Below the pieces are notes generated by a model. That model saw nothing but the letters and a program-made list of their open reading frames with translations. It did no database searches and was not told the DNA's origin. From the IMG/VR virus record IMGVR_UViG_3300035670_001275, positions 1 to 23,252 of that record: a stretch of DNA of 23,252 nt. One strand, 5' to 3'. Positions within the stretch are counted from its first letter, which is position 1. Every line of letters begins with the position of its first letter. Positions 1,463-23,252 of this stretch are shown here, in pieces. This DNA comes from a virus. Both the position numbers and the translations under genes were made by a program.

Positions 1463-3304
1463 ATGGCTGAAAGAAGAATATCCTATACTGTAAGAGATTT
1501 TGCGGCAATCCGACAAGAACTTGTAAACTATACAAAAACATACTATCCAGAATTAATTGATAACTTCAATGACGCCTCAGTATTTTCAGTATTTTTGGAT
1601 TTGAACGCTGCGGTTGCTGACAACCTACACTACCATATCGATAGAAGTATCCAAGAAACAGTTCTACAGTTTGCCCAACAGAGATCCTCAATCTATAATA
1701 TTGCTCGAACTTATGGATTAAAAATACCAGGACAAAGACCATCAATAGCCTTAGTTGATTTTTCAATCACCGTACCGGCATCTGGTGACAAAGAAGATGA
1801 AAGATATTTGGGTATCTTACGAGCTGGAAGTCAGGTGATCGGTTCAGGTCAAATTTTCGAAAACTTGTATGATGTAAACTTTGCATCACCATTCAACCAA
1901 GACGGATTTCCCAACAGGTTAAAAATACCTAATTTCGATGGTAGTGGTAATTTGATTAACTACACAATTACGAAAAGAGAAACTGTTGTAAACGGAATTA
2001 CAAAAGTATTCAAAAGAGTTATAACACCAAATGACGTTCGTCCATTCTTCGAATTCTTCCTACCTGAAAAAAATGTACTTGGTGTAACATCGATTATCCA
2101 AAGAGATGGTACCTCGTATTCTAATGTGCCGACATCACAAGAATTTCTAAGTCCTCAAGGAAGATGGTATGAAGTACCAGCTCTTGCGGATGATAGAGTT
2201 TTTATTGAAGATCCGACTAAGCCTTCAGATAATCCTTCGATAAAAGTTGGAAGATATATTCAAACTCAACAAAGATATATTACAGAATACACTCCTGAAG
2301 GATTTTTGAAAATTACTTTTGGTGGTGGTACGAATACCGCGGAAGATCAACTTAGAGAATTCACCGCACTTGACGTTCCATTGAAAATACAAAGATATCA
2401 AAATAACATGATGTCATTGGGATCAACCCCAAAAGCAAACACCACCTTGTTTATTCAATACAGAATCGGTGGTGGATTGGGTACTAATTTGGGTGTAAAT
2501 GTAATCAATCAGATTGGTGCTGTGGATTTCTTTGTAAACGGACCGTCGGATATCATTAATACATCTGTGATAAATTCATTGGCATGTAATAACGTTACAG
2601 CGGCCATCGGTGGGGCGGGTTATCCATCGACAGAAGAAGTAAGAAATTATGTAACTTATAATTTCTCGGCTCAAAATCGTGCGGTAACAATCAACGATTA
2701 TGAAGCGATAATTAGAAATATGCCGGGTCAATTTGGTGCACCGGCAAAAGTATCGATCACAGAAAACAATAACAAAATTTTGATCAACGTTCTTTCGTAT
2801 GATTCTTCAGGAAATTTAACATCTGAAGTTTCACAAACCATGAAACAAAATCTTGCGGAATATTTGTCAAATTATCGTATGATAAATGATTATGTACAAA
2901 TTGGAAACGCACAAGTTATTGATCTTGCAGTTGATGTTCAAGCGGTGTTAGATTCGGCACAAAATCAAGGGGCGGTTATATCAAATATTATTGATAGAGT
3001 TACAACATTCTTTAGTCCGACTATAAGAGAAATGGGTGAAGATATTTTAGTTTCAGAATTGAGTAGACTTATCCAATCTGAAAATGGTGTTGTAAGTGTA
3101 GGGGAAATTAAAATATTCAACAAAGTTGGGGGTCAATACAGTTCATCTCAAACATCGATGCCCTACTCCGATTTAGCGACCAAAGAAATTTCATTGGTTG
3201 ACAATACTATTTTTGCTGAACCCAATCAGATTTATCAAGTTAGGTTCCCATCTAAGGACATAACAGTACGTGTCAAAAATTATCAGACAACAAACTTCTC
3301 CTAA
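1463..3304 (+). CDS. gp6: Baseplate wedge protein, gp6-like / baseplate J-like
   Basis: The 613-aa product is close to T4 gp6 (about 660 aa), which with gp25 and gp7 forms the wedge and joins neighbouring wedges into the ring around the tail hub. The N-terminus has the family pattern: a YTVRDFAAIRQEL segment, a YYPELIDNFND turn and a long helix ending DNLHYHIDRSIQETVLQFA with a following RSSIYNIARTYGLKIP (~1-90). The J-like part near residues 380-415 shows GYPSTEEVRNY, AQNRAVTINDYEAIIRNMPG and then the alternating beta/alpha C-terminal domain. The start at 1463 lies 4 nt after the gp25-like stop. An AAGG sits only 2 nt before the ATG, too close to be a normal Shine-Dalgarno. The next gene is separated by 75 nt. 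Confidence 0.92.
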   Translation: MAERRISYTVRDFAAIRQELVNYTKTYYPELIDNFNDASVFSVFLDLNAAVADNLHYHIDRSIQETVLQFAQQRSSIYNIARTYGLKIPGQRPSIALVDFSITVPASGDKEDERYLGILRAGSQVIGSGQIFENLYDVNFASPFNQDGFPNRLKIPNFDGSGNLINYTITKRETVVNGITKVFKRVITPNDVRPFFEFFLPEKNVLGVTSIIQRDGTSYSNVPTSQEFLSPQGRWYEVPALADDRVFIEDPTKPSDNPSIKVGRYIQTQQRYITEYTPEGFLKITFGGGTNTAEDQLREFTALDVPLKIQRYQNNMMSLGSTPKANTTLFIQYRIGGGLGTNLGVNVINQIGAVDFFVNGPSDIINTSVINSLACNNVTAAIGGAGYPSTEEVRNYVTYNFSAQNRAVTINDYEAIIRNMPGQFGAPAKVSITENNNKILINVLSYDSSGNLTSEVSQTMKQNLAEYLSNYRMINDYVQIGNAQVIDLAVDVQAVLDSAQNQGAVISNIIDRVTTFFSPTIREMGEDILVSELSRLIQSENGVVSVGEIKIFNKVGGQYSSSQTSMPYSDLATKEISLVDNTIFAEPNQIYQVRFPSKDITVRVKNYQTTNFS

Positions 3305-12852: not shown

Positions 12853-15807
12853 ATGGCTAAAAAGTTTATTCCTAATACCGCAGCATCTGGATCGGGAACT
12901 CCATTTGACAATATTGTCGGTTTGCAAACCGTACAAGGGGGTGGACTTACGCAAGGAAATTTTGAATTTTCAACACAATTATCTGAAAAGGTAAACCGAA
13001 CTTTCAACATCGGGGTTTTCCAAGATCCAATAAGTTTACAGGATTTAGATATTGAATCTGTAAATCAATCACGAGAATTATTAGCAAAAGAATATAGAGT
13101 TTATCCAAACTATGATTTATCACAAGTAACAAACTTCACCATTTTTGGTTCGTTACAAAAACGATTGGAAGTTTCGGTTCAGAGAATCCTTAATTTTTTT
13201 CCTGCGGCTCTCGAAGTTGATAAAACATATTATGATTATTCTACAGGATTAACTGTTACCAATATTTCTTACGATTCGGTTACAAACGAGACTCAATTTG
13301 AGATTGATGTAACAAGAATAAAAAACCCTTTTTCGATTGATTATTCAGTCAATTCTATAATCAATCTCCAAAACAGAGAAAGTGAATTTTCTCCTTTGAG
13401 AGACTTGACTAATAGATACCGAGATTATTCATTATTCAATTCACTTGGTGAATTTCCAATTGTTGATTTCACCCCATCTCAAAGTTTGTTCGGAGGAATA
13501 ATCACAGTTGTGGTAATTGGAGAAGCGTTTCCAAATTTGACAGACACAACTGAAAGTGTTTACATAAAGCCTAACACATATTATACAGAAAAATCATTCA
13601 CAGAGGATTTTGACGAAGTCGAAAAATTCTTATTGAATAGATTGGCAAATCCAATTTATACCGCAACATTTTCTGTTCCTGTCGAGAATGATAATGGAAT
13701 ACTTTCGGTATCAAGTAAAAGTGTAACATGGCCAAAAGATGGTTTGTGGAATTTAGATATAAGGAGTGACAGATTTGAGTTATATCTCGAGGATCTAAAT
13801 CAAATTGGTGTTGAGTTTGACGCCTTCAAAACTAATTTGATCGCAAGATTTTTAGTCACAGAGTCCTTACTTGAATTTGATACTCCTGACCACAAAGTCA
13901 GAAAAGTTTTACAAATCTACGGAAGGAGTTTCGATCAGATCAAACAATTTATTGACGCCTTAGCTTATATGAACTCTGTTTCATATAATCCTGGTAATGA
14001 TATACCATCGATGTTGTTAAAAAATTTGGCAGCAACCTTGGGATGGAGTACAAATATTTCACCAATAACTGAAGAAAGTTTTTTGAGTTCGGTATATTCA
14101 ACAACAGGAGTGACACAGTATGAGGGATTCTCAAGAGAACTGACACCGAGTGAATTGAACTATCAGTTTTACAGAAACTTAATTCTGAATTCGGCTTATC
14201 TTTTCAAATCTAAAGGAACTAGACGATCGATTGAATTTACTCTGAGATTAGTTGGTGCCCCTGACGCTCTTATTGAATTTAATGAACATGTTTATCTCGC
14301 GGATCAAAGAATCAATATGAGACAGTTTGATCAACAGTTTGCTCAAATAACTGGTGGTACCTACGTTGATATTGAAACTTCATATGTTCCAGGTGATACG
14401 TTTACAATTCTCGGTGTTCCGTACACTGGTTTTGCGACAACTCAAAATGTAACAATAGTTGATGAGGTAAGAGAAGATTATCCTGTTGATGAATTCGGTT
14501 ATCCTCAAGCACCCATTGCAAATGACGATTACTTCTTTGAAAAAGGTGCTGGATGGTTTGAATCTACACCACAACACAGAAGTCCTGAACAAGTTAACCA
14601 ATCCTTATCTGTCTTTACAGGTAGTAGTCCTAACATACAGACATATTTGGAACCATTTACTTACGGACAATTATATTTCAACAAATTTAGGTTCTTCCCC
14701 TATATGAATATAGGTTTTAGACTGAAGTACACAATTGATAATAAAAAAAGTTGGCAGGCACCTGTCTTCCGAGTTGCCAGAAACGCGGGATATGAGGCGT
14801 ACTACACTGCCGGTGATGAGAAGTTGGTATTGAATGCGAAGAATGTGGATTTATTCATAAATCCATCTCAAGGTATTTTATACAACGTATGGAAAATGTC
14901 TTCGGATTATAATTATCCGATTCCAAATACAGGATACACACCAACGTTCCCGAGTTTGGGATCAACGAATTGGTCGTTTATAAATCCACAGCCTAACAAG
15001 AAAACCTTTTTTGAATTTGCTCAAACATTTGTGAAAACAACCATCAATATACGAGATCGTTGGTATTCAACAGATGGTAAGACAAGTGGATATCCTGATT
15101 TATTGAATATTTTTTACAAGTACCTTTTATCTAATCAGACAGTCGGTATTCCAAATGATAATTTTTTATATCAAAAGTTGATTGAATATGTTCAAGGAAT
15201 AGGACCTTATTGGATAAGACTTACCCAACAAATGATTCCGGCAACGACTATTTGGAATACAGGTGTCAAGTTCGAAAATTCTGCATTACAAAGACAGAAA
15301 TTTGTTTATAGAAAACAAAGAGGTTGTCAGATCATTCCTGTTGAGAAAGATCCATGTATTGCTCTTGGAAATTTATTTGGTTCAGATTGTTTGAGAGAAA
15401 GTGCTGATTGTTTTGTTTATCCTTGGATTGGAACGTCCTCAGGAGTAAACTCTTTTTCGCAAATTTTATATTCTGTTTTAGATTCATATCTTATAAGTAA
15501 CGGATTATTGATTGGTGATTGTAATACAAACAGTTTGTATTCTGAATGGTATGTTGAAGTAAAAATCGACGGGACCACAATCATACAAAATCAATTCTTT
15601 ACGGGATACGGTATATCCCAAGTTCCAACTAACATACAGTGGAAAAACGCCTTGGTTTTCTATTTGAGTCAATTGATAACATTTGGTTATGGATTCACTC
15701 TTAATGGAAATACAATAACGGTTTACAAATTGGGTTGTGCTGAAGATACTATACCAAGTACTCTACAAATCAATGTGGGGATAAATATTGATATAGATTG
15801 TGTATAA
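12853..15807 (+). CDS. Probable large baseplate wedge protein (gp7 / P2 gpI-like segment), 984 aa
   Basis: The 984-aa length is close to T4 gp7 (about 1032 aa), the largest wedge subunit that joins gp6 and gp25 to the periphery. Two stretches support a tail/baseplate assignment: a helix pair QIYGRSFDQIKQFIDALAYM with NDIPSMLLKNLAATLGW (~355-400), and YRNLILNSAYLFKSKGTRRS followed by IEFTLRLVGAP (~440-470). The latter resembles the 'H..KGT..A....L...G' pattern of P2 gpI-type tail proteins. The last ~110 residues form a separate domain that resembles one in the next gene (FFTGY...PT motif, with several Cys). The gp7 equivalence is an inference from length, motif and cluster context. The start lies 2 nt after the previous stop. 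The stop TAA overlaps the next ATG. Confidence 0.72.
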   Translation: MAKKFIPNTAASGSGTPFDNIVGLQTVQGGGLTQGNFEFSTQLSEKVNRTFNIGVFQDPISLQDLDIESVNQSRELLAKEYRVYPNYDLSQVTNFTIFGSLQKRLEVSVQRILNFFPAALEVDKTYYDYSTGLTVTNISYDSVTNETQFEIDVTRIKNPFSIDYSVNSIINLQNRESEFSPLRDLTNRYRDYSLFNSLGEFPIVDFTPSQSLFGGIITVVVIGEAFPNLTDTTESVYIKPNTYYTEKSFTEDFDEVEKFLLNRLANPIYTATFSVPVENDNGILSVSSKSVTWPKDGLWNLDIRSDRFELYLEDLNQIGVEFDAFKTNLIARFLVTESLLEFDTPDHKVRKVLQIYGRSFDQIKQFIDALAYMNSVSYNPGNDIPSMLLKNLAATLGWSTNISPITEESFLSSVYSTTGVTQYEGFSRELTPSELNYQFYRNLILNSAYLFKSKGTRRSIEFTLRLVGAPDALIEFNEHVYLADQRINMRQFDQQFAQITGGTYVDIETSYVPGDTFTILGVPYTGFATTQNVTIVDEVREDYPVDEFGYPQAPIANDDYFFEKGAGWFESTPQHRSPEQVNQSLSVFTGSSPNIQTYLEPFTYGQLYFNKFRFFPYMNIGFRLKYTIDNKKSWQAPVFRVARNAGYEAYYTAGDEKLVLNAKNVDLFINPSQGILYNVWKMSSDYNYPIPNTGYTPTFPSLGSTNWSFINPQPNKKTFFEFAQTFVKTTINIRDRWYSTDGKTSGYPDLLNIFYKYLLSNQTVGIPNDNFLYQKLIEYVQGIGPYWIRLTQQMIPATTIWNTGVKFENSALQRQKFVYRKQRGCQIIPVEKDPCIALGNLFGSDCLRESADCFVYPWIGTSSGVNSFSQILYSVLDSYLISNGLLIGDCNTNSLYSEWYVEVKIDGTTIIQNQFFTGYGISQVPTNIQWKNALVFYLSQLITFGYGFTLNGNTITVYKLGCAEDTIPSTLQINVGINIDIDCV
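15460..15804 (+). other. C-terminal domain apparently shared with the adjacent SprB-repeat adhesin
   Basis: The end of the 984-aa protein contains a VLDSYL helix, EWYVEVKIDGTT, FFTGYGISQVPTNIQW, then LVFYLSQLI and a beta tail ending in IDIDCV. The next protein, at 18405-18767, has the same order: [34 protein letters not shown], then AVENLLTGI and a beta tail ending in IDYVILC. The matching order and the common FFTGY....[IV]PT..Q[WY] core suggest duplication or exchange of a domain. Confidence 0.6.
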
Positions 15808-18800
15808 TGCCTAGTAGTAATTCAGTATATCTCGTTTGTTGTTATGACGCTACACGATCATTTCTTGCACCCAATCCTACTGTAAATGGAACACCCAATT
15901 CATCTTTTGTTCCTGGTAATACATACGTGGGTCAAGACTCTATCAATGGAAATATTTGTTATTCGGCTAGTTCCACTCCTGTGGGTACTGTATATAATTT
16001 GCAACAAACAAGTTATACGTCCACAATTGACTGTGATGATTGTCAATTATCATATGGATCGTATTGTCCCGTTGTTGTAACTTTTGCAGATGCAATTTTA
16101 GTCAATTGTTGTGATCCAACCGAAACATTGGACGCACGAGTTCCCAATACATACACACCAGGTGTACAGGCAATCAGATATGATGACAAATGTTGGACTG
16201 TACAGTCGTTTGGTGGTTCAGGTGGTGTTGAGTTGTATGGTGGTTATGACGGCTGTGCTTTTTGTGTTGGTCAATTCCCGTGTTGTGACTGTGTCCAAAT
16301 GAATTTGGGTTCGGCTTTGTTTACCTTTGCGGATGGTGGCAACATTTTTGTTGACTATGTAGCATGTAATGGAGATTCTGAAACCTATACTGGAACTTCA
16401 ATCGATAATATCTTCAATATTTGTCATCAATCAGGTACTACATTAACAACTTATTTTACAGTTGCTTCAACACCATTTTCCACAACAACATATCCTTATG
16501 ATCCCTTATTCATAGGTCCCCCCAACGGAGAAATAAGTGCAACAACTGTTGATGTATGTTCGGGAGAACCATGTGGTCCATTACCATCTGCGACACCCAC
16601 TCCTACACCAACTATTACTCCGACACCTACACTTACGGTAACCCCCACCATTACGCCGACACCTACTCGTACTTTACCTTTCTTACCTTCAGAGTTGGAA
16701 TACACTTTGAGTGTTACTGGTACTTGTACCTCACCAACAGGTGCTATTTGTGTCACTCCATCGGGAGGGGTTCCACCATATACGGTAGAGTGGTTATCAC
16801 CAGCTTTGGGATTTGGTTTGTGTAAAACTGGTCTTACGGCGGGTAACTATCAGATCAAACTTACGGATTCCACTTCACCTGTCAATCAGACGATTTACAT
16901 CAGTGCTACGGTTGGGGGTTCTATGACTATGGGTATATCCAATGTTACGGATACCACTTGTGGTTTGGACAATGGTAGTGCGGTGGTTTATAGTGTATCA
17001 TCCAATTCTAATGTTACCTATTATTTGTATTCGGGTTCAAGTGTTTTGAATTCGGTCACCACAACTAATAATATTGCTAGTTTCAATCAGTTGGCACCAG
17101 GAACATATTATGTTTATGGTGTGGGTGTTGATGGTTGTACGGCAACGACAGCCAATTTTGTTGTCAACGATTCGGATCCTTTGGATTTCGGATTTTGGGT
17201 TGTAAATGACACTCAGTGTTTGAGTCCTAGTGGAAAGTTATTTATCACGGGTCTTACTGGGAATGCCCCTTACACTTACCTATGGAGTAACTTGGAGACC
17301 ACATCGAGTATTACGGGACTTAGTTTCGGGTCCTATTCGGTTACTGTTACAGACTCACAAGGTTGTGAGGTTACCAAATCTGCTTTGGTGGATTACGTAC
17401 CAGGTTTGGGATTGGGAGCGTGGAGTGGTGAATCCCCAACATGTTTCAATGCCGACGGATCTTTGACTCTAACCATAACGGGGGGTACTGGTCCATATTT
17501 CTATTCGGGTAGTAATGGAACAACCATCGTTACCTACGCAACGGCTTATACCTTTACCAACTTGGCAGCGGGTTCCTTCTTTGTTGAAGTAACAGATGCC
17601 GCGTTATGTAAACAATTATTCAGTACAACACTAATTACCCCCACCTCATTTTACGATGTAGATGCTGTGGTTACAAATTCGACATGTTCATCCACCAACG
17701 GTTCATTGAATGTATCGTTACAAGGGGGTAGTCCGCCATATACCTATTCGCTCAGTTCATTGACCTCTTCGGTTAGTGCGACAACGAATTCCACTCAATA
17801 TATCTTTGGTGGTTTGGCTAATGGTACTTATCAACTAACCATTACTGATGGGGGTGAGTGTACCTACGATACTTTAGTTACAATCAACTCAACGGATCTA
17901 TTCACGGTTACACCATCCGCGACCACCGCATCTTGCGGACTTAGTAATGGTGAATTGACATTGTTTGCCACCACGGGTGGAACTCTTCCATATACCTATA
18001 CATTGGATAACGGACAGAGTCTTACAACAACCAACTTATCGGCAACATTCTCTTTGTTACCATCGGGTCCCTATCAGTATTATGTTACAGATGCTGGTGG
18101 ATGTACCGTATCAGGTAACACAAGTGTGGGGGATATTAGTCCGTTGAACTTCTCATTATTCCCAACTCAACCATTATATCCTTCAACAACGGGTAGTATA
18201 TCAGTTTTGATTTCTCAAGGACAACCTCCGTTTAGTTTTACGTGGTCATCAAACGTACCAGGAAATCCTCAATCAATATATGTGACAGGACTAACTGCTG
18301 ATACTTACACATTGACCATTGTTGACGACAACGGATGTGTACAAACAAGAAGTACGGTAATTGAACCAGCAGGATTCCAACAGACCTATCAGACATATAC
18401 CATGTGTGAATCTGATTTTGTGTTTACCTCTGCAACAAGAAGAACGATGCTCGATATGGTGTATGAAGGGTTTGTTGATTTGACGGCACCCGAAACAGGA
18501 TGTACCCTTTCATCGATGACCTTTACCATTGAAGTGGAAGTTAGCGGTAACACCTATTCGGATACGTTCTTCACAGGATATACATTGACGGATATTCCTA
18601 CTGATACTCAGTATTTCACCGCAGTTGAAAACTTGCTTACAGGAATCACAGGAGTTTCACAAGTGATTATCGATCCTGTTACCTCTCAGGTTTCTATATT
18701 CACGGAGGGGGAATTGGCAAACAAACCTGTGGTGATTGATTTGATTATTGATTATGTGATATTGTGTCCAACACCATGTCCCACTCCGACTGTGACTCCA

Positions 18801-18884
18801 ACACAAAGTGAAACCCCTACACCTACACCTACGGTAACTGAAACTCCGACTCAAACACCTACGGTGTCCACAAGTTCGACTTAA
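15807..18884 (+). CDS. Large modular tail fibre / adhesin with Cys-rich modules, seven SprB-like repeats and Thr-Pro linkers
   Basis: The likely start is the ATG at 15807, overlapping the previous stop (TAATG). A TTG nine bases upstream is in frame but less likely. The product is ~1025 aa. Residues 1-~165 hold two Cys-rich modules (CC...CY...CDDC, then CC...CW...CAFC). After another Cys-containing domain comes a first Thr/Pro linker (~260-290). Next are about seven repeats of ~70-80 aa with the SprB pattern: Cys, Asn/Asp-Gly, GG..PY.Y.W, a GL..G.Y.VT..D..GC close. A separate ~120-aa domain (18405-18767) and a Thr/Pro tail ending in STSST follow. SprB repeats are known from a Bacteroidota gliding adhesin. 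In a phage virion such repeats most likely build a long flexible fibre that binds the host surface. No signal peptide is visible. A receptor-binding role is inferred. Confidence 0.85.
15825..16295 (+). repeat. Two Cys-rich CC...C[YW]...CxxC modules
   Basis: Module A (about 15825-16074) reads VCCYD, then NICYS, DCDDC and YCP. Module B (about 16102-16295) reads NCCDP, then DKCWT, GCAFC and PCCDC. Both share a Cys-Cys pair, a Cys followed by an aromatic, a CxxC and a final Cys. Three further copies lie in the next gene (20164-20872). Confidence 0.65.
16587..16677 (+). repeat. Thr-Pro-rich linker, first tract of the SprB adhesin
   Basis: About 30 residues of TPTPT / TVTPTIT type, coded by ACN-CCN steps with mixed third positions. 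It joins the Cys-rich head to the SprB-like repeats. It is likely a stiff, extended spacer. Confidence 0.85.
16700..18375 (+). repeat. Seven tandem SprB-like repeats (protein-level)
   Basis: Seven units of about 70-80 residues can be laid out, each with an early Cys ([53 protein letters not shown]; the last unit has PLYPSTTG with the Cys lost). Most then have a G..PY/PF.Y core, and the close is a D..GC-like turn (DSQGC, DAGGC, DDNGC). Units 1 and 4 deviate at the closing turn. The DNA copies are well diverged, so these are old protein repeats rather than recent tandem duplications. Confidence 0.8.
18405..18767 (+). other. C-terminal domain of the SprB adhesin, apparently shared with the 984-aa wedge-like protein
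   Basis: This ~120-aa domain begins at [20 protein letters not shown], contains [20 protein letters not shown] and IPTDTQY, and ends IDYVILC before the terminal Thr/Pro tract. It aligns by eye with the last ~110 residues of the preceding protein (15460-15804). Confidence 0.6.
18768..18881 (+). repeat. Thr-Pro-rich C-terminal tract of the SprB adhesin
   Basis: About 38 residues of [12 protein letters not shown] / ETPTQTP type ending the protein. The same vocabulary (SETPT, TQTPT) opens the stalk of the next gene, so the two genes share low-complexity sequence across their boundary. Confidence 0.85.
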
Positions 18885-18886
18885 AA

Positions 18887-18897
18887 AATATATTTAT
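18887..18897 (+). promoter_or_regulatory. Putative promoter-like motif AATATATTTAT in the 17-nt gap before the Thr-Pro stalk gene
   Basis: Identical to the 11-mer at 981-991. It fills most of the 17-nt gap and ends 4 nt before the ATG at 18902, close to the 5-nt spacing at the gp25-like gene. Confidence 0.4.
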
Positions 18898-18901
18898 TGT
18901 A

Positions 18902-20875
18902 ATGCCATCACAAATTCAAATAACAAGTTTCACTGGAGCCTTACCCGCTCAAGTTTTTGTTGCTGATGTGTATGGTAATAACAGTAGTTTTTTGGGAACA
19001 TTGACTGTTCCTGTTCCACCGACAGTTTATTTTACGTTACCTTCTATATTTGATTTTGCTCCTGCGGTGATGATCACTTTGATTGATGCAAATGGTTGTG
19101 AAGAATTTACAATTGATGAATGTTTGGTTGTATTCCCTTCACCGACTCCAACACCATCAATTACTCCAACTGTAACACCAACAATAAGTGAGACGCCAAC
19201 TCAAACTCCGACACCAACTATTTCTGAGACTCCAACACAAACTCCGAGTGTTACACCTACGGAAACACCGACTCAAACTCCGAGTGTAACTCCATCGCCT
19301 GATCCGTCTCAAACACCTACTCCTACAGTTACACCAACTGTAACTGATACTCCGACGCAGACTCCGACACCAACTATTTCTGAAACACCTACTCAGACTC
19401 CAACGCCTACTGAAACTCCGACACCAACCATTTCAGAGACGCCAACCCAAACTCCTTCAGTTACACCATCTTCGGATCCGACTCAGACTCCAACTCAGAG
19501 TGTGACTCAAACTCCTACACCAACAATTTCTGAATCACCAACACCAACTGTAACACCAACTGTTTCTGAAACTCCGACTCAGACGCCAACTCCAACAATT
19601 TCGGAGACACCAACTCAGACGCCTTCTGTTACACCTACAAGTGATCCGACACAAACTCCAACTCAGAGTGTAACACAGACTCCGACACCAACAATAAGTG
19701 AGAGTGCAACTCCGACGCCTACAATCAGTGAAAGTTCAACTCCAACACCGACACCAACAATAAGTGAGAGTGCAACTCCAACGCCTACACCAACAATAAG
19801 TGAGAGTGCTACTCCTACACCAACAGTTACACCTTCTTCGGATCCAACACAGACACCGACCGTAAGTGTTACACAAACACCAACACCTACTATTAGTGAA
19901 AGTGCAACTCCAACGATTACACCTACCATCACGGTTACGCCTACTATCAGTGAGTCATCGACACCTACACCAACACCTACTATTAGTGAAAGTGCAACCC
20001 CAACCCCTACACCTACAATCACGGTAACTCCTACGATTAGTGTTACTCCGACTATATCTGTAACTCCTACAATTTCTGTTACACCTACCATTAGTCCTGC
20101 GGTTTCGCCTACGCCAACACCAACTACAAGTACTAACTATTCCTATTACATAATGACATTAACTGATTGTTGTACCGGTATTGGATATGAGAATGTAAAA
20201 ATCAAGACACTGGTTGGTGCTGGGGCGGGACCAGGTAAGATAATATTGGCTGATATTGGAAATGGATTTGGTCTATCATGTTTTGTAATTGGAAGTCAAA
20301 CTAACAACACCGCAACAACTTCTGTCACAGCTCAAGCGGTTTACAGTGATTGTCCAACATGTTTGTCAAGTGGATCAATCACATGTCCTGACATTAGAAG
20401 ATTACAAGATTGTTGTGATAATTCTATTGCTTGGTACGCATATATACCTAATAGTCTTTCTTCAGGTACTATCATCTCTTCAACAGGAAGATGTTATTCC
20501 ATTGGAGCAATATTTACGGGTGTGACACCAAACGTACAATTTGCATCGTTGTATTCGACAGGTGCGAATGATTGTGTGGCTTGTAATGCTGCAAATCCAT
20601 GTCCTACACCAACTCCAACTGTAACTCCAACAACTACCCTGACACCAACACCGACAATTAGTCCTGCGGTTGTTTCTTACTTGGCACAACCTGTAAATGT
20701 AAGCTGTTCCTTTACGGCAGGACCAATTACATTCTTGAGTACTTCTAATCCAGCTGTGGGTGAATATTTCAAAAACGGAGCTACTTGTTATAAGGTTGTA
20801 AGTGGAACTCCATTTAGTCCCTCGTTCACTTATAACGGGACTTATCAAAATGATTGTTCATTCTGTTTCACTTAA
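18902..20875 (+). CDS. Modular fibre protein with a ~330-aa Thr/Pro stalk and three Cys-rich modules
   Basis: The 657-aa protein has an N-terminal beta domain (~1-78; IQITSFTG, a [10 protein letters not shown] turn and an IDANGCEEF close). A very long Thr/Pro/Ser/Glu stalk (~79-410) follows, with recurring phrases such as [17 protein letters not shown] and SDPTQTPT. Residues ~415-657 contain three Cys-rich modules (DCC...CF...CPTC...CP; DCC...CY...CVAC...CP; and a variant SCS...CY...CSFC) split by a short second Thr/Pro linker. No signal peptide or membrane helix is visible. Stalk plus distal Cys-rich domains suggest an extended fibre whose tips bind host surface or other fibre proteins. I do not recognise the Cys-rich family by name. 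The ATG has no Shine-Dalgarno. The next gene is 72 nt away. Confidence 0.83.
19136..20132 (+). repeat. Long Thr-Pro-Ser-Glu low-complexity stalk (~332 aa)
   Basis: Almost every second residue is Pro or Thr. Higher-order phrases repeat: the block [20 protein letters not shown] occurs three times (about 19472-19536, 19640-19705 and 19837-19902), with many synonymous differences, including Ser coded by TCN in one copy and AGY in another. The tract ends with four or five TISVTP units. Long antisense open frames here are artefacts of composition. Confidence 0.92.
20164..20872 (+). repeat. Three Cys-rich modules of the stalk protein
   Basis: Module C (about 20164-20392) has DCCTG, LSCFV, DCPTC and ITCPD. 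Module D (about 20403-20606) has DCCDN, GRCYS, DCVAC and NPCP. Module E (about 20698-20872) has SCSF, ATCYK and DCSFC at the protein end. All keep the CxxC and the Cys-aromatic. C and D also keep the Cys-Cys pair. They match modules A and B in the preceding gene. Confidence 0.68.
20602..20668 (+). repeat. Short Thr-Pro linker between Cys-rich modules D and E
   Basis: About 22 residues ([20 protein letters not shown]) join the fourth and fifth Cys-rich modules. The linker ends in SPAV, the same close as the end of the long stalk. Confidence 0.85.
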
Positions 20876-20947: not shown

Positions 20948-22000
20948 ATGGCTTGTACTTGCAAAAAACACACATTACAAAATATCACATCTAAAATTGC
21001 GGTTGTTACCTACAATAGATGTTCTGATAATGCTTTTATTGACGAGCAATACATACAACCTGGTGCCACAGTTAATCTTTATTACGTAAATGACACTTAC
21101 TACACAGCATATGGAAATGCTTTAGTAACGGTGGCGATTGAAAACTGGCCGGCAGGTTGTGATATTACTCCGACACCGACTCCGAGTGTTACAATGACAG
21201 TAACACCAACGTCATCAACAGGTGCCCCAACTCCAACCCCAACGTCGTCGGAGACTCCAACACCAACTCCTACATTGACACAAACACCAACGGTAACCCC
21301 TACGGTGACACCAACAACAGGAGTTACAACAACACCGACACCAACATTGACATCAACACCAACATTGACACCTAGTTCAACAGTTGCTGGCCCACCAGCA
21401 TTGATTTTCATCGAATCTTCAGATGATGCGGTAAATCCTGCGGCTAGTCCAAACACGGATATTTTGGCTTACATGATCTCAACTGGTGCGACAACTTGGT
21501 TCGGTTTCCAAGTTTCAGGTATTCCGAATTTCGGAGATGCGAATCAGGTGGCGGATTTCTTGTTGTGGATGGATTGGCCAGGTTTCGTAAATGGTACGAC
21601 AAATAATACCAATGGAACATTGACGGCAAACATCCCTCAAGTTTCAGGTGGTTTAGATTCCTATGGTAATGTAATCGATGCGTTTACTTTCATAACAACA
21701 GAAGTACCTGCAGGTTCTGTTACAGGTAGTATCTATTACATCGTATTAGCACCACTTACTCAAACTAATAGTCAGATTTATTCACAAATAGCGATTGATT
21801 ATAACAACTCACCTCAATCCATGATTTCGTACAATACAGAATCTTCATTGAGATCAACTAACATAGTTTACTCAGGACCTAACTGGGAAAACACTACATA
21901 CAGAGTCTACACTCAATCTCCGAACAATGGATTTACAAACGGTTCACCTGGAGTTACGGACTCAACCAATAATTACTTCAAAGGTAGCACCCTAATCTAA
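20948..22000 (+). CDS. Modular fibre protein: small Cys-containing head, Thr/Pro linker, C-terminal globular domain
   Basis: The 350-aa protein begins with a compact domain (~1-72) that starts MACTCKKHTLQNIT and includes YNRCSDNAF, an IQPGATVNLYYVNDTYY strand pair and an AGCDI end. A Thr/Pro linker of ~73 residues (21167-21384) follows. The C-terminal ~205 residues (from ~PPALIFIESS) form a beta-rich, Cys-free domain with WFGFQVSGIPNFGD, FLLWMDWPGF and NGSPGVTDSTNNYFKGSTL. I do not recognise either folded domain by name. The layout (small head, stiff spacer, larger domain) fits a short tail spike or fibre, or a linker joining the baseplate to a receptor-binding domain. The gap upstream holds a weak terminator, the AAACTATTTAT motif and a palindrome, so it may be separately transcribed. 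There is no Shine-Dalgarno before the ATG. Confidence 0.83.
   Translation: MACTCKKHTLQNITSKIAVVTYNRCSDNAFIDEQYIQPGATVNLYYVNDTYYTAYGNALVTVAIENWPAGCDITPTPTPSVTMTVTPTSSTGAPTPTPTSSETPTPTPTLTQTPTVTPTVTPTTGVTTTPTPTLTSTPTLTPSSTVAGPPALIFIESSDDAVNPAASPNTDILAYMISTGATTWFGFQVSGIPNFGDANQVADFLLWMDWPGFVNGTTNNTNGTLTANIPQVSGGLDSYGNVIDAFTFITTEVPAGSVTGSIYYIVLAPLTQTNSQIYSQIAIDYNNSPQSMISYNTESSLRSTNIVYSGPNWENTTYRVYTQSPNNGFTNGSPGVTDSTNNYFKGSTLI
21167..21384 (+). repeat. Thr-Pro-rich linker of the 350-aa fibre protein
   Basis: About 73 residues of TPTPTPSVTMTVTPT / [15 protein letters not shown] type, the fifth Thr/Pro tract in the window. It separates the N-terminal head from the C-terminal domain. Confidence 0.88.
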
Positions 22001-22011
22001 ATAATACAAAA

Positions 22012-23252
22012 ATGAGCGTTCCCTACAAAAACCCAATATCAGGATTATTTGTCTCCTCACCGTCCTCGGTGAACCCAACATCAACTTTCGGAACAAACTT
22101 CAGTGTTCTCCAAATTGGTGGATACATGGAAGTTTACAACTTAACTGACCTCCAATATTCTACATTTGGAAATACAGGTAATATCGAAAATTCAGGAAAT
22201 ACAATTCCTGTTACACTTTATGTAAGACAAGCACCAACAATCTCAGACCGATTGACATTGAACAGTGATGCAATATCAACAGGTCGTAGAAGACTTGGTA
22301 TGTTGGTATACGTTCATGAAACTAACCTAACTTACCAATTTCAAATTGATGATTATCAAACATTGTGGGACAATGCAGTTGCTGCGAATTGTATCAGCAC
22401 TGGATCGACATCATATTCTGTATTCAACAGAATTGGTGGCGTAGAACAAGCTGCGGGACAATCATTTATAGATGCTTGGACAGGATCAACAATTGAAGGT
22501 ATAAGTGGTACTTCAAGAAATGATGCTCGTTGGAGAATATTTTACGGAAGTGATACGAGAATTACGGGTGGAACTTTCGACGAATCGACCGCAACTTTAG
22601 ATTTATTCGATAGTTCAGGAAATACTATTAGTGTTACGGGTGTAACAGGTGTAGAAATAACAGGTGGTACTTACAACTCAGGTACAACTTCGATTGAATT
22701 ATATAACTCAACTGGAGGTACGGTAACCATTTCAGGTTTTACAGGTGCTTCGGGTTCTTCAGGAACTAGTGGTACTTCAGGGCAAGACGGAACATCAGGT
22801 ACATCAGGTACAAATGGGTCAAGTGGTTCTTCAGGTACTTCAGGAACAAATGGATCGAGCGGTTCGTCAGGTACGTCAGGCTCGAGTGGAAGTTCAGGTT
22901 CATCAGGTACATCAGGACAAGACGGAACTTCGGGTTCTTCAGGTACTTCAGGACAAGACGGAACCTCGGGTTCTTCAGGTACCTCAGGAACAAATGGATC
23001 AAGCGGTTCTTCAGGTACCTCAGGTACGAATGGTTCTAGCGGTTCTTCTGGTACTTCAGGTACAAATGGTTCAAGTGGAAGTTCAGGTTCATCCGGTACA
23101 TCAGGACAAGATGGAACTTCGGGTTCTTCAGGTTCTTCAGGCACATCAGGACAAGATGGAACTTCAGGTTCTTCAGGTTCATCAGGTACCTCTGGTACAA
23201 ACGGATCGAGTGGTTCTTCAGGTACCTCAGGTACAAACGGATCGAGTGGTTC
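22012..23252 (+). CDS. Tail fibre-like protein with a collagen-like Gly-X-Y tract (3' truncated by window edge)
   Basis: The frame opens at ATG 22012, 11 nt after the previous stop, behind the A-rich leader ATAATACAAAA. It stays open to the window end (413 full codons). The N-terminal ~190 residues are a beta-rich domain with MEVYNLTDLQYSTFGNTGNI, VTLYVRQAPTISDRLTLNSD, RIGGVEQAAGQSFIDAW and SRNDARWRIFYGSDT, which I cannot assign to a named family. Two short beta-hairpin repeats follow: ITGGTFDESTATLDLFDSSG and ITGGTYNSGTTSIELYNSTG (~190-240), a motif style common in phage fibres. From residue 242 an unbroken Gly-X-Y tract runs off the window. Phage collagen-like proteins normally form trimeric fibre shafts. 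The receptor-binding tip or a further domain probably lies beyond the edge. The long proline-rich antisense frames here are composition artefacts. Confidence 0.88.
   Translation, partial: MSVPYKNPISGLFVSSPSSVNPTSTFGTNFSVLQIGGYMEVYNLTDLQYSTFGNTGNIENSGNTIPVTLYVRQAPTISDRLTLNSDAISTGRRRLGMLVYVHETNLTYQFQIDDYQTLWDNAVAANCISTGSTSYSVFNRIGGVEQAAGQSFIDAWTGSTIEGISGTSRNDARWRIFYGSDTRITGGTFDESTATLDLFDSSGNTISVTGVTGVEITGGTYNSGTTSIELYNSTGGTVTISGFTGASGSSGTSGTSGQDGTSGTSGTNGSSGSSGTSGTNGSSGSSGTSGSSGSSGSSGTSGQDGTSGSSGTSGQDGTSGSSGTSGTNGSSGSSGTSGTNGSSGSSGTSGTNGSSGSSGSSGTSGQDGTSGSSGSSGTSGQDGTSGSSGSSGTSGTNGSSGSSGTSGTNGSSG
22735..23252 (+). repeat. Collagen-like Gly-X-Y tract built from four triplets (GSS, GTS, GQD, GTN)
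   Basis: Starting at GFT GAS, every following triplet to the window end is GSS, GTS, GQD or GTN: about 57 triplets without a break and without a single proline. In this stretch GQD is always between two GTS, and GTN is always preceded by GTS and followed by GSS, which gives 12-residue units such as GTS-GTN-GSS-GSS and GTS-GQD-GTS-GSS. Codons vary freely between copies (Ser as TCA, TCT, TCG, TCC, AGT, AGC). Confidence 0.95.

Follow-up and report, generated by a model that had tools for sequence, protein, structure and literature searches.

A Cys-rich module of about 70 residues, present five times in two adjacent genes of an uncultured virus, is a real domain, and its copies form one undescribed domain family without a match in any library searched. 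We put at about 0.6 the probability that these are disulfide-stabilised tail-fibre modules with an adhesive role. Within that reading, binding is the least certain step, after the family itself and the pairing of its cysteines.

Two adjacent genes carry five Cys-rich modules

The stretch of DNA analysed (the window) comprises 23,252 bases of viral sequence, positions 1-23,252 of record IMGVR_UViG_3300035670_001275. It contains a contractile-tail baseplate block with gp25-like (997-1458) and gp6-like (1463-3304) wedge genes, followed downstream by large fibre-type genes; a tRNA search of the window found none. All five modules (M1 to M5) lie within genes A and B, which are adjacent and on the same strand. 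The first ATG of gene A is at 15807, and the listed TTG start, 15798, lies upstream of it.

15807-18884, + strand: gene A, 1025 aa (ORF listing); in order M1, M2, a second Cys-rich domain type, a PT linker, a SprB repeat array and a PT-rich tail
15807-16073, + strand: M1, CC..CY..CDDC..CP; divergent member
16074-16286, + strand: M2, CC..CW..CAFC..PC; independent profile E=9e-6, 24.8 bits
16281-16575, + strand: second Cys-rich domain, of another type, related to the gene C N-terminus (small profile)
18902-20875, + strand: gene B, 657 aa (ORF listing); in order a conserved N-terminal domain, a PT-rich stalk, M3, M4, a short PT linker and M5 at the C-terminus
19136-20116, + strand: PT-rich stalk/linker of gene B (from the translation)
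20129-20389, + strand: M3, CC..CF..CPTC..CP; independent profile E=1e-5, 24.7 bits
20390-20605, + strand: M4, CC..CY..CVAC..PCP; most typical copy; independent profile E=4.9e-10, 38.6 bits
about 20672-20872, + strand: M5, CS..CY..CSFC; last residues of gene B
20948-22000, + strand: gene C, neighbour of gene B; PT-linker fibre protein whose N-terminus has the second type of Cys-rich domain

An earlier note on this DNA had described five such modules, and all are present near the coordinates it gave, with bounds now refined. The CxxC strings are the five that it quoted (CDDC, CAFC, CPTC, CVAC and CSFC), and each module has a Cys before an aromatic residue (CY, CW, CF, CY and CY in M1 to M5). Its statement that four of the five have a starting Cys pair and a closing Cys also stands: M1 to M4 open with CC and close with CP or CC. 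M5 starts with CS and has no closing Cys; numbering the cysteines Cys1 to Cys6 in order, it is a four-Cys form without Cys2 and Cys6.

The SprB repeats of gene A matched Pfam PF13573 in six stretches (E=9e-27; best stretch, residues 546-576). Since SprB repeats are typical of Bacteroidota adhesins, the host of the phage is likely to belong to the Bacteroidota. An adhesin repeat of the presumed hosts makes up a large part of this phage fibre gene, and a literature search found no paper tying SprB repeats to phage fibres.

Gene C has no module of the five-copy CC/CxxC family. The second Cys-rich type, roughly C.C...Y..C..G...IC, occurs in the window after M2 (16281-16575) and at the start of gene C (20948-21160); a five-sequence profile of it matched in 20 loci, and in six related loci (L093-L097 and L103) it stands at the start of gene A, replacing the CC modules. 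Gene D (22012-23250) encodes a GTSG collagen-like stalk. A protein of locus L310 has an N-terminus similar to that of gene D, then a very long stalk and six CC modules at its C-terminus.

The modules share ancestry

Outside the cysteines, the window modules are only 9-16% identical (four modules compared), and ancestry was therefore tested with profiles. Such low identity is what would be expected if the five segments were alike in Cys-rich composition without common ancestry. Pattern counts spoke against this: the two regular-expression matches in gene A and three in gene B were reached by 0/5000 composition-preserving shuffles, and again by 0/5000 when the Cys-rich segments alone were shuffled. 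Furthermore, an independent profile, built from viral hits on other contigs and containing no window sequence, matched M2, M3 and M4. The two remaining copies were weak on this profile, M5 scoring 10.2 bits (E=0.35) and M1 9.5 bits (E=0.55) against a maximum of 9.9 bits over 4000 shuffled segments; on a wider family profile they reached 15.9 and 12.9 bits, respectively, against a shuffled maximum of 11.3 (shuffled-sequence noise ceiling, 9.9-11.3 bits). M1 and M5 are thus individually marginal on the independent profile, which is the other point in favour of chance. The membership of M1 is supported by its orthologues and by a predicted order of strands and helix like that of M2 and M4. Family membership of M2 to M4 is near certain. 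Chance resemblance, which is also opposed by the predicted topology common to the modelled modules and by Cys spacing kept over 76 loci, is effectively refuted for M2, M3 and M4 and very improbable as an account of the five.

Homologues occur in uncultured phages

We fetched 160 related loci via two neighbouring products, the gp6-like protein and a 984-aa protein. On iterative profile searching, gene A proved to open with a pair of modules in many of the nearer relatives (those ~71-90% identical in the 984-aa protein); single modules occur in gene B of L083 and in gene A of L100 and L101, and in the more distant relatives whose sequence was read throughout, gene A begins straight with the SprB-type array. 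For DNA-level scans, a looser pattern matched mostly by chance, and a tighter one with PC at its end was adopted. This strict pattern hit 52 viral contigs, with the motif in a long open frame in 51 of them. Applied to 257 Gb of bacterial and archaeal genomes, it matched 6 times, and the sole match in an open frame is low-complexity. In a further survey with the profile, 395 genomes from a single phylum, the sample being centred on a Mucilaginibacter genome, gave 4 weak matches (E 0.002-0.003), 3 of them with internal stops; neither of these two cellular-genome surveys yielded a convincing member. A collection scan with a single protein as query, the tail of gene B, brought up no relatives.

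The final family comprises 207 domain hits at 76 loci, so that at least 76 uncultured phage loci carry it. Its profile was positive on 12/12 phage records taken as positives, with 1 to 35 copies per contig, and a single protein has up to 10 copies. The contig of L255 (G005) holds 35 copies and that of L318 (G021) 26, in proteins of up to 3843 aa. A Gp23-type major capsid gene is present in 7 of 31 module-bearing or related records, some of the contigs being 280-326 kb long; the other records may be fragments.

The earlier note knew of no named family with this pattern, and we likewise obtained no match in Pfam, PHROGs, NCBIfam or PDB sequences. The best Pfam-A E value on the modules was 0.11, not significant, and on multi-module proteins Pfam gave nothing significant except a collagen stalk. 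NCBIfam had no module match. PHROGs returned for the modules single weak matches (at least 0.01), the remainder being isolated and weak or on PT/GTSG stretches; phrog_15511 was rejected as the identity of the module, as its match falls on the PT stalk of gene B. A PDB profile match, 3mp2, was also rejected (E=0.14). Thirteen family members scanned against SprB PF13573 gave no match at E<=1, tblastn of three module queries against cultured-phage records gave none, and a literature search found no description of the module. The claim of one domain with conserved Cys spacing was borne out: a profile search, the check that the earlier note had proposed, found this spacing in about 150 distinct homologues, which outside the Cys frame are about 10-35% identical.

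Predicted fold

AlphaFold2 modelled M4 from 80 family sequences with a pLDDT of 91.8 and a pTM of 0.77. The model has strands at residues 2-8, 16-20, 29-32 and 35-42, then a helix at 63-69 that begins at the CxxC. A model of the M1-M2 pair (24 sequences; pLDDT 80.2) has a like order of elements in both halves, again with the helix at the CxxC; because further members of the family were in its alignment, this model is not fully independent as a test. Structure prediction, another check suggested earlier, thus gave the same element order in M4 and M1-M2, the only modules modelled. The predicted fold of the module is four beta strands and a short helix beginning at the CxxC.

A PDB structure search with both models returned no significant match. 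The nearest solved shape was mitochondrial bL33 (Foldseek best E=1.9; TM-score 0.57 on the target; non-significant); with either model it was the closest small shape in the PDB, at a probability of 0.2-0.35. The best BFVD matches were uncharacterised proteins of uncultured phages, one of them annotated as SprB repeat. A BFVD match in Sulfitobacter phage phiCB2047-B was judged a small beta-barrel resemblance and rejected as a member; the length-matched protein of that phage, SUFG_00037, has no Cys frame and no convincing profile match.

Paired loss of cysteines points to disulfides

In 128 non-redundant members, Cys1, Cys3, Cys4 and Cys5 are nearly invariant (126-128/128); 110 of these members have Cys2, and Cys6 often lies beyond the aligned end. 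Cys6 was therefore scored by direct reading of the sequence after Cys5. Among modules below 50% identity, it is kept in 87 of 92 with Cys2 versus 3 of 17 without (Fisher P=4e-11), and the co-loss persists below 40% identity (P=1.6e-7); these tests take modules as independent, and thinning to 40% lessens relatedness but does not remove it.

A second count, which included degenerate modules and was anchored on Cys3, separated those with a single N-terminal Cys into two flavours: Cys4 and Cys5 kept with Cys6 absent (n=17), or Cys5 and Cys6 kept with Cys4 absent (n=6 by rule plus one by eye, residues 1676-1725 of L318 ORF 8725-14283). When both N-terminal cysteines are present, Cys4 and Cys6 are both kept in 94/107 (Fisher P=8e-13). 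By rule, five modules break the two-flavour scheme; in most of them, judged by eye, the second Cys is displaced or a Cys of the next module is borrowed. Exceptions to the pairing are found in L298 ORF 1-1542 (residues 383-450), in L087 (residues 102-168) and in a few modules with a displaced closing Cys. In some modules of the second flavour, the strand register puts the remaining Cys at position 2 (YALYLFNSVC versus YKTVNARKCC). The forms seen, in a pattern scan that favoured six-Cys modules, are thus six-Cys, four-Cys without Cys2 and Cys6, and four-Cys without Cys1 and Cys4; joint loss of Cys3 and Cys5 was not seen among the family modules. Cys number is even and loss is paired, with few exceptions, as in disulfide-rich secreted domains. 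In the second module of the L303, L308 and L252 arrays, the CxxC is widened to Cx4C (CESNVC, CEDETC and CESSVC) and all six Cys are kept.

The earlier note had found metal binding attractive for a protein folded in a reducing cytoplasm. Cys1, Cys3, Cys4 and Cys5 would then hold zinc or iron in a ribbon-like fold, with Cys2-Cys6 as an optional bridge. The near invariance of precisely these four cysteines is consistent with such a site, as is the nearest, non-significant, fold, since bacterial relatives of bL33 can be zinc ribbons. However, the seven modules of the second flavour lack one N-terminal Cys and Cys4 yet keep Cys5 and Cys6, and this loss would break a Cys1-Cys3-Cys4-Cys5 site. No His replaces a conserved Cys in the 128 non-redundant sequences, and Cys number drops in twos. 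Nor does the module group with zinc ribbons or bL33-like proteins: the small shape is similar, but structural matches have E of at least 1.9, there is no sequence match, and the Cys arrangement differs, with one CxxC knuckle only and paired Cys loss. We therefore consider a metal-binding module improbable, and the proposal less supported than disulfides, which better fit the pairwise loss of Cys1 with Cys4 and of Cys2 with Cys6.

From this paired loss, disulfides Cys1-Cys4 and Cys2-Cys6 are likely, and Cys3-Cys5 would follow by elimination only. The three predicted bonds would hold the domain together, a minority of copies keeping two. Against disulfides stands the reducing cytoplasm in which phage proteins are made; the bonds would have to await the opening of the cytoplasm at lysis, or form in cells that have some oxidising capacity. 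The objection is not fatal, because Agrobacterium phages Milano and 7-7-1 have disulfide-rich virions (PMC12796354); their bonds link capsid or tail subunits, whereas those of the module are predicted within a small repeated fibre module.

Probable placement on fibres and exchange between relatives

PT-rich or GTSG stalks accompany the modules in 43 of 68 distinct module-bearing ORFs, and 35 of the 68 have two or more modules. These stalks and linkers, together with the gp25-like and gp6-like wedge genes upstream, suggest that the modules belong to tail fibres, on which the domain would be hung singly or in arrays via Pro/Thr linkers or GTSG stalks. A module-bearing protein of 1807 aa (L255 2-5422) also has a metzincin-like HEMGHTFGLHH motif, and some fibre proteins may thus include a protease domain.

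At corresponding places, close relatives carry different sets of modules or different tips, in agreement with the exchange between fibre genes suggested earlier. Where gene B of the window has three modules, that of L083 has a single one plus a C-terminal domain unrelated to them. Gene A, in both L082 and L083, continues past a PT linker into an extra C-terminal domain that is absent from the window. Exchange probably takes place at the PT linkers. In six related arrays, non-Cys identity is 34% at the same position across phages versus 21% between different positions in one protein, and these arrays are therefore old, with specialised positions.

The modules might instead only stiffen or lengthen the fibre without touching a receptor, like the accessory Ig-like domains of virions. 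Modules also lie inside long proteins, at N-termini and between PT linkers, in many copies, and the identity kept by position across phages is scaffold-like. Against a purely structural part stand the last module ending the protein in 18/68 ORFs (ORFs cut by contig ends included), the alternation of modules, from one close relative to another, with tip domains of a quite different kind, and the strong divergence outside the cysteines. We regard such a spacer as unlikely, and prefer the adhesive role; the receptor binding proposed in the earlier note is plausible. A rigid Cys frame would let the remaining sequence diverge, and the arrays would therefore most likely be interchangeable adhesion or receptor-binding heads, exposed on the fibre and touching the host surface.

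Known systems and implications

Small beta domains shuffled on fibres are a known kind of system; the domain family itself has no description in the libraries searched. Accessory Ig-like domains of tailed phages are small beta domains that virion proteins have acquired and that move from gene to gene. The modules resemble them in this respect but are Cys-rich, have a C-terminal helix and no Pfam Ig match, and suggest no Ig topology. Like the SprB repeat of Bacteroidota gliding adhesins, whose array adjoins the Cys modules in gene A, the module is repeated and presumably extracellular; SprB, however, lacks the CC/CxxC frame, and no family module matches PF13573. T4 gp37 and gp12 contain metal-bound fibre parts. 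These, too, are distal parts stabilised by a chemical cross-link, but they use His-based metal sites, and the modules have no His in place of a conserved Cys.

The family provides an annotatable domain for large fibre proteins of uncultured phages that lie outside all libraries searched, and the disulfide map offered here is testable. For proteins synthesised in the cytoplasm of a bacterium, it would be unusual for disulfides to form the default frame of a fibre domain. More tentatively, the module may be a phage-specific, disulfide-locked and exchangeable recognition unit, with up to 10 position-specialised copies per fibre and dozens per virus, that varies host binding and whose bonds form outside the cytoplasm. 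If so, part of the host range of environmental phages could be read from the arrays.
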